Source: Lycium barbarum
Taxonomy: Eukaryota; Streptophyta; Magnoliopsida; Solanales; Solanaceae
Direction: 5' to 3'
Assembly: GCF_019175385.1 (NCBI RefSeq)
Contig: NC_083340.1
Coordinates: 13,900,336 to 13,964,335, forward strand
Length of the DNA stretch: 64,000 nt
Of the stretch, positions 1,936 to 53,020 are shown piece by piece. Position 1 is the stretch's first letter; every line of letters starts with the position of its first letter. The position numbers and the translations under genes were made by a program. The notes beneath the pieces were generated by a model that saw nothing but the letters and a program-made list of their open reading frames with translations, was not told where the DNA came from and searched no databases.

Positions 1936-4763
1936 TGTCACGCCCCGAACCATGGCCTGGACGTAACACGGCACTCGGTGCCTGACTGCATGTGACCGAG
2001 CGAACCACATGGCCTGCTGAATCATCATGATACATAACATAAGCGGAATATAACGTGAATGCATGATGAGCCTTTATAAAACATGCTAAGTCATAATACT
2101 TAATAGAATACTTGTTTAAACATGAGTGAGCCAAATTGGCTATACGACTCCAAATGTCTGACATGACATAACTGACTTGTCTAGTCTATGAAACCTCTAT
2201 CATGAGTCTGACTGGAAAACATACTTACTGGGACAAGGCCCCCAGCATACCTTTAGATGCAAACTAAATAAAGAAATACAATGTCTAAACCCCGAATGAG
2301 ATGGGGCTCACCAATAAGCTGGTACGTGCAAATCCTAATGAGCAGAAGCGTCGTCCTGTAAATCCGTACCTGCATCGTGAAATGCAGGCCCCCGGGCAAT
2401 AAAAGGGGACGTCAGCACATTGAATGTACAGGTATGTAAAGTAACCGAAAGAAACAACATGGGACATGGAATAACATGATAAGAACTGAAACTGAAAACC
2501 TGGACATGAACATGAGCATGTGTACATACGTATATATATAACATAAGTAAAAACATGATAAGTAGGGAGACCATTTCATAAACCGACACATGATATCACC
2601 ATGTGGATATGTGGAGTCTGGTACCTCGCCGGACCAGCAGAGCCCCTATACCTTGCCAGGGTATAAGGTGGTAACATGCCTGATGGATCCATTCAGTGTA
2701 AAATTAAGGTATTGTCCTAACTGGGCGGAGCGATCCTTGTCCTATGGTGGCTACATAGTTTCAGGCTATCTGAGCCTTCTCGGTCATTCGTGCAACTCCC
2801 AAAACATGAACATAATATAGTTGGCTAAGAAGCCCATGACTTTCGTGAATTAACTTGTACTTGTCTTGTAAGCATGATTTCACGAAATAACTTGTAAACA
2901 TGGTTTCATGAAATATCTTGTAAACATGTTCTTGATTTATGAGTAATACAATAGTTCATAATCATATATTTGTAATTGACTTGAAAACATGCTTGTAACT
3001 TGCAAAATAAAATCATGCAGTTTCATATGAACGTAATGAGAACACATGAGGAAGAATTCATGATTCATGGATTAAGCTAGGTTTCCTAATATCCGTAATG
3101 GAAGATTAGGAATACAATAACGAACATAGATACAAAATGCATGTACATACATACATAATTACGGGCTACCAATATGTTGGGTTTAATGCCCTAGGATTTG
3201 AACTTCATAGATTTTACAAAACGGATCATGGGGAAGAACGTAGAGGTTCCCACATATGGATGGAAGTTCTACATACCTTAACTTCCTGCTTTTGAGCGTA
3301 TCACAATGTCCTCCAATCCCTTCAACTTTAATCTATAGCAATACAGGTCATAGGGATTCTATATTAGCAACAATATCCATGCTTTGTTCATCTAAGCATT
3401 TTATCAAACACTTGGTGGGCATGAAGCTCCACAACCCTCATTAATGGTGTTTTCTTCACCAAATCCCCATGCTATTACTTCTAGCTAATTCTACAATCTC
3501 AATTAGATGTAATTAACATCATTCTTCATCACCCATATGAATACAACAATCCCAAGTCAACAATCCAACAACTCTAGCATAGTTCATATAATTCTCTTCA
3601 TCAAACCCAATTATTATTCTCCCAAGAATTCATCAATTCACAACTATAAATGATTAGGGAGTAGAAACATTACCTTTTATGAGTAGTCACCACGAAATCA
3701 ACATCCCCAAGTTCTATTTTTAGCTTAGAATGACGGCAACAACTTGTACTACACTTTATCCTTCACGAGCCTCGGGATTCGGGGCCTTCAACTTGGTTGA
3801 TTCTCTACTTTCTCTCTCTAACTCTCCCCTCTCTCTATCTCTCTCTCTAAAATCTGAAAATGTGATGAAATGTGGCTGCTAGGGTTAACATTTCCCTTAA
3901 ATACCAAGGGGAAATGGGTTTGACCCAACTTGAAATCGGGTTGGGACCTTTCTGTCTTAAAACGTCCATATCTCCCTATCCCGATGTCACCTGTGGGCCC
4001 ACGACCTATGGTTGGAAAGGTATTTCAATTATCTACAACTTTAGTTCTTTGATTTTTCCCAAATTTCCCAATTTATGATAGGGTTATGGCCTCTCGAAGT
4101 CAGGTGACCCGAAACGTACTTACGGACCAAAATACACCCCATGTTACGGTCCCGTAACACGAAGTACGGACCGTAACATAGTACCGTACCTTGGTGAAAA
4201 TTTCCAGTGAGGTTCTGGAAATTTTTGGTGTGTTACGACTCACTGTTACGGCCCGTAACACGTGTTACGACCCGTAACGTCCACCAACACAGGCGAAATT
4301 TCCAGCGAACATGCTTCATTAAAATGGGCATAAATCTTTGTACAGATGTCCGTTTGACCCCCATAATATACCGTTGGAAAGATATTTCAAAGGGCTACAA
4401 CTTTCATCAAGGAAGCTTTCTCAAATTCCCAACGGATTTTCACGAAATTTGACTGGAAGGCAGACGTATCAAAAACTTAGCCGATTCTATAGGACTTCAA
4501 GTGCCTTACTATTAGTCATATTGAGACGATCATATCTCCTTGCTCCGATCTCTGATTGGCTTGGTCCTTATATCGTTAGAAAGCTATATCTACATAATAC
4601 AACTTCATTGAGGGTACTTTCCCAAATTCCAAACCGATCAAGGAGTTATCGCTGCCCGAAATAGGCCTATCAACCATTTTTGCAAAACGTTCAAACCTTC
4701 AGTGTTCCACTAGAACTCTAATGATATGAGCTTAAACTTAGTTTCAAGATGCGGGGTGTTACA
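1936..4763 (-). mobile_element. Solo LTR, Tekay/Del-like, 2.8 kb
   Basis: On the minus strand the block begins TGTAACACCCCGC and ends CGGGGCGTGACA, so it has the TG...CA ends of an LTR. Both flanks carry the same five bases, TATAA (1931-1935 and 4764-4768), the target-site duplication expected for an integrated gypsy element. No internal region, PBS or second LTR is present, so it arose by recombination between the two LTRs of a full element. It resembles the Tekay LTRs at 28323 and 37462 in its ends, length and a shared GTACTGACGTCC-like word, but it is clearly another subfamily. In the minus direction a cluster of TTACGG...CCGTAA palindromes (4085-4285) is followed by a TATA-like TATTTAA (3897-3903), then by a CT-rich leader (3810-3850) and a donor-like AAAAGGTAATG near 3672-3682. 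Confidence 0.9.
4085..4285. repeat. Palindrome cluster in solo LTR U3
   Basis: About eight imperfect copies of half-sites TTACGG and CCGTAA are paired here into palindromes such as TTACGGCCCGTAA and TACGGACCGTAA. A second hairpin (TTTCCAGTGAGGTTCTGGAAA, loop included, at about 4200-4220) lies in the middle. The cluster sits directly upstream, in LTR orientation, of the TATA-like box near 3900. The same combination occurs in the Athila element at 46018-47510. Confidence 0.75.
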
Positions 4764-4768
4764 TATAA

Positions 4769-5060
4769 AATGTACTAGCACAAGAAGTCGGAACATAATG
4801 AAGATAATTATATTTAATCTTGTGCTACAATCATACCGATAGCTTTATCCAATTTCCATCTTAGATTGTGAACATAAAACTTTATACTTATAAGAACCGA
4901 TGATTTAATCTTCCGTGTATAAGTTAAACTCTATACGCTAAATCATCTACTATATATAAGTAAAGGACACACATACTAGTACATGATCTATTTAACTTTT
5001 TACATAAAATTGAATAAATAATTATTCTATAATAAATATTATATCCAAACAGATGATTAA
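4769..5060. other. Gene-free DNA beyond the solo LTR
   Basis: Continuation of the sequence interrupted by the solo LTR. A reverse-strand CTATATATAG (4951-4960) is the only promoter-like word. No gene is seen. Confidence 0.35.
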
Positions 5061-50914: not shown

Positions 50915-51565
50915 AGAGTAGATATATTGATATATAAGTTCTAAATAAATCCACGCTGAAGCTGTAGGGTTAGAAATAAGAGGAAGAAAGGTGAACGAAG
51001 TCAAAATGAAGTGTCAAGGAGGGTGAGTTACCACTATCCAAAAAATCATCCTACCCGTCCCTAAGCCAATATTACAAGCCTAAAAAGTCCTAATGTGATC
51101 ACAGTCGAACTGTTCAAAGTTAAAGGCATGGAAAATAAAGGCAAGCCTATGGTATGTGCACGCATGGTATGCAAATTTCTTTGTGAGTGTGAGTGTCCTT
51201 CTGTCTCTTTAGTCTTCTATCCCATTTATTTTGTAAATGTGTTTTAGGACATTCTTTGGTCTATGTGAGGGCGTAAGGATTGTAGATTGCAAAGTAACTG
51301 GCTTTCCGGAAGTTGAAATTCATCTGCATAGAGACTCCCATACTATGATTGTGTCATTAATTGAGGTTTGATAGTGAATTGCAATTGTTCTGAAATGTGC
51401 GTCTTGTGTCACAAATAGGAGGTGGATAAGAGCCCAATATTTTTCTTGGATTGAAGAGTCTATGCTAGAAACACATGCCAAAGCCACCGTAGTCATTCTT
51501 ATTTTGCTTGATGTAATGTGATAAGTAGTGAGTCTTATTGTAGTTTCTTGAGGACAAGCAAAAGC

Positions 51566-51577
51566 TTAAGTTGGGGG
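51566..51577 (+). other. Athila polypurine tract
   Basis: TTAAGTTGGGGG lies directly before TGTTGATATGCC of the 3' LTR, the expected site of plus-strand DNA priming. The two T within the purine run are usual for this lineage. Confidence 0.7.
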
Positions 51578-53020
51578 TGTTGATATGCCGTGAATTTAGG
51601 CACATTTTATGCCTTTGTAAATAGAAGTGTTGCTTGTTTTTAAGTGTTTTTACATCATTTCTTATGTTATTTTTGTGTTTTATAGGGTTGGTTGACTAAG
51701 GATTGGAAATGATAAGAAATGCTGAAAAACGGACAACTTGGAGCTAAAAGACGGTCCGTAACTCATGTTACGGGCCGTAACGTGATCCGTACCAGAGAGG
51801 ATACGTGCCGCTATAAAGGACGGTCCGTAACGTGTACCGTAAGCTGAGGAAAATTTCCAGAAAGTTGCCTAAGTAGTGTCACAGGTTACGCCCCAGAAGG
51901 ACGGTCCGTAACCTAGGTTAAGGGGCGTAACGTCATGGCGTAATGCATTGGCCACTGAAGACTGCGGCCATGATCCGCTGGGAGATACAGACTGTAACCT
52001 GTGTTACGGTCCGTCGCATAGTGGCCGTGACATCACGCTGACAAAGGACGAACCGAAGGACGGACCGTTACCTGTGTTGCGGTCCGTAACGGTGCCGCGT
52101 AAGGGTGTTTTTGTCCAGAAACTTGGCGCGATGTTTTGCCCTATAAATACCTAAAGTAGGGTTTTAATTCATTATTCTGATTTTTTTCAAGGAGCATTAA
52201 CTTTAGGTCTTGAATATTTGAAGCGGTTGGAGCATTTAAAGCAACAACTTCACTTTCATTCCGTATTGTATTAGCATTGTAAATATATTATGTTAACTTT
52301 TAAGCTTTCTTTGTTAGCCAAAATTATGAGTAGCTAATTTTAATTCTAAGGTTGTGGATCCCATGATGGATATTATGTGAATGGGTTTCTACTATTGATA
52401 TATGCATAATAGTTGTTAGTATTTATTCTATCTTTGTGCGTTAGCGTTGGGTAATGATTGCAAGCATTAGCCTAAGCCATTATATTAACTTTTCTTGGGA
52501 AAGAGAGTTAGTATTGGTAAGATTGAATAACAATGACTCGGGGCGTTAACCCTCATTTAATAGACTAACTTAGGGATAAGAACAAGTCTAAATTGACATT
52601 ATTGGTCGCTCTTCGATTGCAACTCTTTTAAATTTGGAAGAATCATAAAGAGGAAATACGGCCTAACTATTAGGAAACATTAGGAAGTCTTTAAGAGATC
52701 AAGTGCATATTCATAGAACAACCATTAGAAATATATCACATTGAAACCTGAAGCATAATATCTAATCAAAATGGGAAACACAACCTTAGTCTCTCTCTCG
52801 CATTAAGTACAATTCAAGTCAAAGTATTCAATTACATTATTCAACAAATACTTCAAACTATCAGGAATAGGATTAAAGCCTTTAAAGACTAGTATCGCAT
52901 ACAATTAGTATCTTTTTCTCTCTCCATATTCCCTGTGGGATTCAACCCTAATCTCGTTTGGGTTACTATATTTGACAACGTTCGCTTTACGCCATTAATA
53001 AGTGTAATTTGAGCGTATCA
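51578..53020 (+). repeat. Athila 3' LTR
   Basis: 1443 bp from TGTTGATATGCC to GAGCGTATCA, complete. It carries the palindrome array 51745-52105 (one unit shorter than in the 5' LTR) and a TATA box CTATAAATAC at 52141. The donor-like site of the 5' LTR reads GTAAATAT here, so it is weakened. Confidence 0.9.

Follow-up and report, generated by a model that had tools for sequence, protein, structure and literature searches.

Palindromic 'repeated motifs' are a feature of Sireviruses, a genus of Ty1/copia retrotransposons, and in 12 of 13 elements these palindromes have CGG-CCG as their core (Bousios et al. 2010, PMC2829016). According to the accessible part of that description, the motifs occur in many copies, mostly in the upper half of the long terminal repeat (LTR) and starting 200-400 bp into it, where they form CpG islands and are followed by a TATA box at a mean distance of 37 bp; env-bearing elements also have them 5′ of ENV, and each element has its own version of one core. 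The present analysis concerns arrays of a similar palindrome in Ty3 retrotransposons of Lycium barbarum, namely a solo LTR, a full-length Tekay-type element and an Athila element, all within one stretch of 64,000 nucleotides (contig NC_083340.1, positions 13,900,336 to 13,964,335), hereafter the window. The coordinates of all features are collected in Table 1.

Other repeated elements offer looser parallels. Tnt1 box I and similar copia boxes are repeated cis-acting U3 boxes with symmetry. Unlike the arrays described here, such boxes are few, confined to one family and different in sequence. VANDALs are DNA transposons. Tnt1 box I is named as an activator repeat of a copia LTR in the accessible part of PMC2829016. 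For the VANC target arrays of VANDAL transposons, a loss of methylation has been demonstrated on a largely family-specific 9-bp motif, which evolves along with its tandem repeats (PMC5735166 and PMC10398659, in their accessible parts). Like these, the Lycium arrays pack short, tandemly repeated motifs into non-coding DNA of the element, a putative intron included; unlike them, they use a palindrome found across families in place of a largely family-specific motif in a single orientation.

The resemblance to Sireviruses, as far as PMC2829016 is accessible, comprises the CGG-CCG palindrome core, the high copy number of sites clustered in the LTR upstream of a TATA-like word, and further arrays (46033-46377 and 47076-47510) ahead of an env-like open reading frame (ORF), with CpG richness and TATA distance recurring here in Ty3 elements. 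A counterpart of the motif therefore exists, although the first-pass annotation of the window had known of no named element for it. The differences are equally specific. The carriers are Ty3 by their protein domains, with no search having been made for the Sirevirus polypurine tract, and one near-identical site with outer TTA/TAA bases is common to different families of a single genome, unlike the element-specific versions described. The 19-bp pairing of sites, the outer half-sites and the companion motif AAATTTCCAG reported below do not appear in the accessible part of the Sirevirus description.

Clustered palindromes and the 19-bp pair

The palindrome TTACGGACCGTAA, searched on both strands of the window and compared with dinucleotide-preserving shuffles, gave 105 matches with up to three mismatches against 10.65 expected, and 32 against 0.05 when at most one mismatch was allowed. 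For all further counts, a site was defined as TTACGGNCCGTAA with its centre base free, read on one strand with no more than 3 mismatches in 12. By this definition the window holds 64 sites, 60 of which lie in seven clusters totalling 2,422 bp (3.8%), with 5-11 sites per cluster and with bounds drawn by the analyst around the clusters of the first-pass annotation. The other four are at 16198, 37607 (in a Tekay LTR, ahead of its array), 49183 and 49315. Among the control stretches, sites were absent from both LTRs of the outer chromovirus and its internal part (3.7 kb), from the Tekay internal region (6.4 kb), from Athila pol (4.9 kb) and from the right flank (9.8 kb); Athila from the env-like ORF onward has 2 in 4.0 kb, and the left flank 1 in 17.5 kb. 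The clustering at the seven places first named is thus real and not a product of chance.

In three LTR families the arrays lie ~170-640 bp into the LTR, in its first quarter or third. Compared at full length, any two of the solo, Athila and right Tekay LTRs share just one match outside the arrays, of 12-18 bp with an E value of 0.14 or worse, and the solo and right Tekay LTRs have nothing in common beyond one 18-bp match. The earlier claim that the motif is common to LTR families that do not otherwise align is upheld by this comparison.

The dominant feature of the arrays, which goes beyond what the first-pass annotation described, is the pairing of sites at a fixed distance. A start-to-start distance of 19 bp is the commonest in the window (27 pairs, duplicated LTRs included), followed by 100 and 101 bp with 7 each. 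Reducing the data to five non-redundant arrays leaves 44 sites that form 20 exact 19-bp pairs, with at least one in every array: 1 in the solo LTR, 5 in the Athila LTR, 3 in the Tekay LTR, and 5 and 6 in the two internal arrays of Athila. Random placement of equal numbers of sites in the same arrays gave 1.0 pairs on average and never more than 6 in 5,000 trials.

Additional symmetry surrounds these pairs. Under a rule allowing up to 2 mismatches in 6, a TTACGG-like half-site was sought to the left of each pair and a CCGTAA-like one to the right. The former stands at −12/−13 in 9 of 19 pairs and the latter at +38/+39 in 12 of 19, against an expectation of ~0.6 in 19 at any one offset and a peak of 4 at other offsets; at least one outer half-site accompanies 17 of the 19. 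The fullest unit, of ~56 bp, is symmetric and reads half-site, 6 bp, full site, 6 bp, full site, 6 bp, half-site. A pyrimidine-purine step marks the centre of the middle spacer in 17/19 pairs, and the spacer reads C....G in 12/19. Conservation is strongest in the inner arms (CCGTAAC and GTTACGG), where 13 of 14 positions are matched in at least 17 of 21 pairs and four of them in all 21, this larger set including two overlapping pairs taken from triples. The CGGNCCG core bases are present in 19-20 of the 21 pairs per position at the first site and in 17-21 at the second. Successive units follow one another at steps of 95-106 bp in 10 of 14 cases and 69-86 bp in the others, and Athila array 2 is a tandem repeat of 3.2 copies with a period of 101 bp.

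This grammar is directly observed, and the interpretation favoured here, to which we assign a probability of roughly 0.6, is that the clusters are promoter-proximal cis-regulatory arrays offering repeated docking sites to a DNA-binding protein in the form of a dimer or a dimer of dimers. The basic unit would consist of two TTACGGNCCGTAA palindromes 6 bp apart, symmetric about the spacer, with one dimer on each palindrome, the two dimers adjacent and the half-sites serving as edge contacts. Two to five such units ahead of the LTR TATA box may act as an enhancer array, while the Athila arrays before the env-like ORF would drive an internal promoter. Activation is the likeliest effect on the nearby promoter, repression or anti-silencing being possible as well. 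A NAC-type factor (core CGTA) was considered, but no claim is made for it.

The paired palindromes might instead matter as stems in the transcript, where a hairpin or small-RNA hotspot would serve silencing or RNA handling. Element RNA contains U3 at its 3′ end, and the five arrays fold far below shuffled sequences (z scores of −4.3, −7.0, −5.0, −4.8 and −15.1, with 30 shuffles each), a property that counts against protein docking. Nevertheless, strong folding does not distinguish the readings, because any palindrome pair folds stably. No compensated change was found in the pairs, even with G-U pairing allowed: the 21 pairs contain 60 one-sided departures (50 in the set of 19) and 0 double compensatory changes, and at 12 of 13 positions the arms show no more Watson-Crick pairing than independence predicts, the exception being the centre base with 7 against 6.8. 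Since the substitutions are uncompensated, it is the double-stranded site that appears to be kept and not an RNA stem. An RNA hairpin was rejected on this ground as the principal explanation despite the strong folding, and it is decidedly unlikely.

Dense symmetric CpGs provide another route to function, as a methylation-sensitive switch that a methyl-CpG reader or demethylase would recognize in place of a sequence-specific factor. The observed/expected CpG ratio of the arrays is indeed 1.33-1.71 at a G+C content of 43-53%, compared with 0.67 in the rest of the Athila LTR, 0.84 in the rest of the Tekay LTR and 0.64 in the window. A CpG reader, however, would need neither the non-CpG TTA/TAA bases nor the 19-bp spacing nor the spacer centre, all of which are conserved. 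CpG transitions between LTR copies, moreover, did not differ significantly between arrays and the remaining LTR sequence (5/112 against 14/192, pooled p = 0.46); the separate counts are 1/38 against 6/148 for Tekay and 4/74 against 8/44 for Athila. A methylation-sensitive switch, also among the explanations of the first-pass annotation, draws neither support nor refutation from these data, and as a reading in its own right it is about as unlikely as the hairpin.

TATA-like words and the env-like frame of Athila

The arrays are positioned near TATA-like words, drawn from the analyst's own word list with no estimate of chance occurrence, such words being common in A+T-rich DNA. Counted from where the last site ends, the word follows after 53 bp in each Athila LTR and 47 bp in each Tekay LTR; for the internal arrays of Athila the figures are 25 bp (array 1) and 36 bp (array 2). 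The earlier statement that clusters end a short way before a TATA-like box consequently holds for four of five LTRs and is ambiguous for the solo LTR.

Array 1 of Athila sits between the end of integrase and the env-like ORF. The TTTAAATAC box that follows it, together with the ATG-free leader and the GT-AG interval, would make up the arrangement expected of an internal promoter for the env-like frame, whose start is the first ATG past the putative intron (47597). The ORF itself is read in two pieces. PF20167 scores 34 bits in the first, below the Pfam cut-off of 45, and 50 bits in the second, above it; all three homologues of the first piece come from L. barbarum, with 70-90% identity over 23-63% of its length, and a protein search with the second piece returned no matches. 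A second internal start is equally possible because array 2 carries its own TATA-like word. For additional ORFs in plant LTR elements generally, the accessible parts of PMC7264820 and PMC11963269 provide background.

The neighbourhood of this ORF also raises the prospect of an element-encoded anti-silencing platform of the VANDAL/VANC kind, in which an Athila protein, perhaps the PF20167 product, would bind the arrays and remove silencing marks, with Tekay-type elements exploiting the system. The arrays lie upstream of the env-like ORF and within its putative intron, and array 2 is tandem with a period of 101 bp; the accessible part of PMC5735166 likewise describes VANC21 target motifs as tandemly repeated, upstream of VANA21 and within introns of both VANC21 and VANB21. 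According to the same source, however, those motifs are 9-mers in a single orientation and rare in other families, unlike a palindrome shared across families. The Lycium arrays also occur in LTRs of families where no env-like ORF was seen, and the ORF is known just as PF20167, a 'putative plant transposon protein', for which a DNA-binding role is hypothetical. Such a platform is unlikely on balance.

A binding site, one of the explanations offered in the first-pass annotation, is supported, as is the promoter-proximal clustering that it described. Several observations weigh against the docking-array interpretation, in addition to the RNA folding. The solo LTR has one exact 19-bp pair, its second pair being spaced at 20 bp, and it lacks a clear nearby TATA box, the candidates being a weak ATAAATT 44 bp away and TATTTAAG 217 bp away. 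Since pairs within an array may be mutual copies, the 20 pairs cannot be counted as independent events. Both outer half-sites flank just 4 of 19 pairs. Array 2 lies inside the putative intron and does not simply precede the first TATA-like box, and the evidence as a whole is limited to five non-redundant arrays in a single window of 64 kb.

Companion motif, linkers and probable module sharing

The linkers between units often contain AAATTTCCAG, at times facing CTGGAAATTT. Exact copies of this companion motif, which was chosen after the arrays had been inspected, number 7 on both strands of the window against 0.34 expected, and every copy lies in an array or no more than 20 bp from one. Three belong to the solo LTR, the third (4296) standing 19 bp beyond the last site, and one to each Athila LTR and each Athila internal array, with none in Tekay. 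With one mismatch allowed, AAATTTCCAG is not enriched in the window (13 against 10.99 expected, with 28 of 100 shuffles reaching 13).

Linkers were compared with the sites masked, using 500 base shuffles per comparison. None of the 500 shuffles equalled the closeness of the solo LTR linkers to those of the Athila LTR, of array 1 or of array 2, and the same holds for the Athila LTR against array 2; 4 of 500 shuffles reach the likeness of the Athila LTR to array 1, and 39 of 500 that of array 1 to array 2. Much of this likeness is due to AAATTTCCAG itself. Without masking, the solo LTR array aligns with Athila array 2 over 115 bp at 76% identity (E 4.5e-17). The four comparisons involving Tekay linkers, in which 27 to 133 of 500 shuffles were as close, gave no clear likeness.

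These results suggest that the solo LTR and Athila likely share a composite module of ~100 bp through exchange or common descent. The full-length Tekay appears to share the palindrome grammar alone, either because its linkers have diverged or because the grammar was acquired separately. The transfer of a U3 module between families, another of the original proposals, thus finds support for the solo LTR and Athila, with their similar linkers, but none for the full-length Tekay, whose linkers resemble those of no other array.

The same data bear on selfish drift, in which a repeat of ~100 bp would have spread through slippage and template switching without any function. The true tandem repetition of array 2 and the resemblance of solo LTR and Athila linkers are what such a process would leave behind. 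Yet the Tekay sites, their 19-bp spacing and their symmetry persist amid linkers with no clear likeness, and three LTR families keep the array in the same part of the LTR. Functionless drift is very improbable, and the arrays are probably not mere tandem-repeat noise.

A broader extension of the docking-array interpretation would have one protein, encoded by the host or by an element, read CGG-CCG palindromes in both large superfamilies of plant LTR retrotransposons. The array would then be a mobile ~100-bp regulatory cassette, exchanged among unrelated families and serving each element at two places, the genomic promoter and the internal promoter of the env-like gene. This extension is tentative, with the odds against it.

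Carrier elements and significance among plant retrotransposons

Self-BLAST of the window revealed nested retrotransposons, with the Tekay-type element inside the Athila 5′ LTR and Athila inside an outer Ty3 element. The LTRs of the latter, a chromodomain element, are short and free of palindrome sites.

Table 1. Coordinates of arrays, TATA-like words and carrier elements in the window (positions counted from its first nucleotide; PBS, primer-binding site).
Feature	Position	Strand	Remarks
Solo LTR	1936..4763	-	Complete; Tekay-like by ends (TGTAACACCCCG...CGTGACA); TATAA on both sides
Solo LTR array	4120..4305	-	Sites 4120, 4144, 4164, 4246, 4265; AAATTTCCAG at 4198, 4215, 4296
Outer Ty3 chromodomain element	22862-54198	coding on minus strand	Split by Athila insertion
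Athila 5′ LTR	26914..28322	+	Self-BLAST, ends read; 3′ end cut off by Tekay insertion
Athila 5′ LTR array	27085..27457	+	19-bp pairs at 27085, 27154, 27254, 27340, 27413; AAATTTCCAG at 27206
TATAAATAC box, Athila 5′ LTR	27497..27505	+	
Tekay LTR, left copy	28323..30891	+	Against right copy, without last ~40 bp and PBS
Tekay left LTR array	28552..28790	+	19-bp pairs at 28552, 28658, 28759
TATA-like TTAAATAAG, left Tekay LTR	28837..28845	+	
Tekay LTR, right copy	37462..40059	+	Ends before PBS at 40066
Tekay right LTR array	37691..37929	+	Pairs at 37691, 37797, 37898
TATA-like TTAAATAAG, right Tekay LTR	37976..37984	+	
Athila internal array 1	46033..46377	+	Pairs 46033, 46136, 46235; triple 46311/46330/46349; AAATTTCCAG at 46205
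TTTAAATAC, TATA-like box of probable internal promoter	46386..46394	+	
Probable leader	46394..46599	+	206 bp, 70% pyrimidine, ATG-free
Putative leader intron	46600..47594	+	GT at 46600, AG at 47593-47594; inferred from sequence
Athila internal array 2	47076..47510	+	Pairs 47076, 47176, 47277, 47377; triple 47460/47479/47498; AAATTTCCAG at 47346
TATA-like TATAATTGA	47546..47554	+	36 bp past array 2
Env-like additional ORF of Athila	47597..49224	+	Two pieces, 47597-48415 and 48514-49224
Athila 3′ LTR	51578..53020	+	Self-BLAST, ends read
Athila 3′ LTR array	51749..52089	+	Four 19-bp pairs (up to 3 mismatches each), the second site of one further pair being deleted; AAATTTCCAG at 51851
TATAAATAC box, Athila 3′ LTR	52142..52150	+	

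The lineage names used here rest on domains and prior knowledge and not on a tree. Pfam domains in the carrier proteins include RVP_2, RVT_1, RT_RNaseH, Integrase_H2C2 and Tf2-1 SH3, a set that we take to be of Ty3 type. Between the pol pieces of Tekay and Athila, identity is 26% across 327 residues. The Tekay frame 36240-37217 matches Tf2-1 SH3 but no Pfam chromodomain, and the name Tekay for the full-length element is our assumption; so is its use for the solo LTR, whose ends resemble those of the Tekay LTR. Athila contains RT_RNaseH and Integrase_H2C2 in 43950-44957 and the PF20167 ORF pieces before its 3′ LTR, and this combination of Ty3 pol with a PF20167 ORF is presumably the mark of that lineage.

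The Tekay PBS at 40066 reads TGGTATCAGAGC, which we assume to be of the tRNA-Met type. Beyond the right Tekay LTR and PBS, a second, partial gag reaches ~40888, where Athila gag resumes, so that the order within the insertion (37462-40888) is LTR, internal region, LTR, gag fragment. The 5′ part of the Athila internal region appears to be missing, and by-eye inspection of LTR and element ends revealed no target-site duplication of Athila. A perfect run of 56 TA dinucleotides occupies 50803-50914 inside this element. Elsewhere in the window, a dispersed repeat pair (5068-5356 and 18602-18882, 92% identical), the first copy of which starts near TGTTTGGCCATAAA, is perhaps a small non-autonomous element. 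A 275-residue frame at 9058-9885 is part of a gene for an AT-hook motif nuclear-localized protein; it best matches a 430-residue AHL13-like protein of Lycium ferocissimum (87% identity over 94%).

Searches outside the window gave little that resembles the arrays. IMG/VR contains the 15-base palindrome in 16 stretches, at one place in each. A Rhodothalassium genome has a single copy of the exact pair and a viral contig a single looser pair; all were taken as chance. The Athila and Tekay protein pieces had no relatives in viral contigs. In the literature, the full motif strings had no match, the half-site words led to no title on plant retrotransposons, and nothing was found on Athila and Tekay in Lycium. 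Among the matches listed, judged mostly by title, none dealt with such arrays in Ty3 elements. The Ty3 elements of the window carry palindrome arrays of the Sirevirus type, and neither the 19-bp pair grammar nor the companion motif of these arrays was met in print in the searches made.

If the docking-array interpretation is correct, the CGG-CCG core and its placement would represent a promoter design more widespread among plant retrotransposons, reaching beyond Sireviruses. The 19-bp grammar would supply a precise probe for isolating the binding factor, and the arrays would bear on the expression of env-like ORFs in plant retrotransposons.

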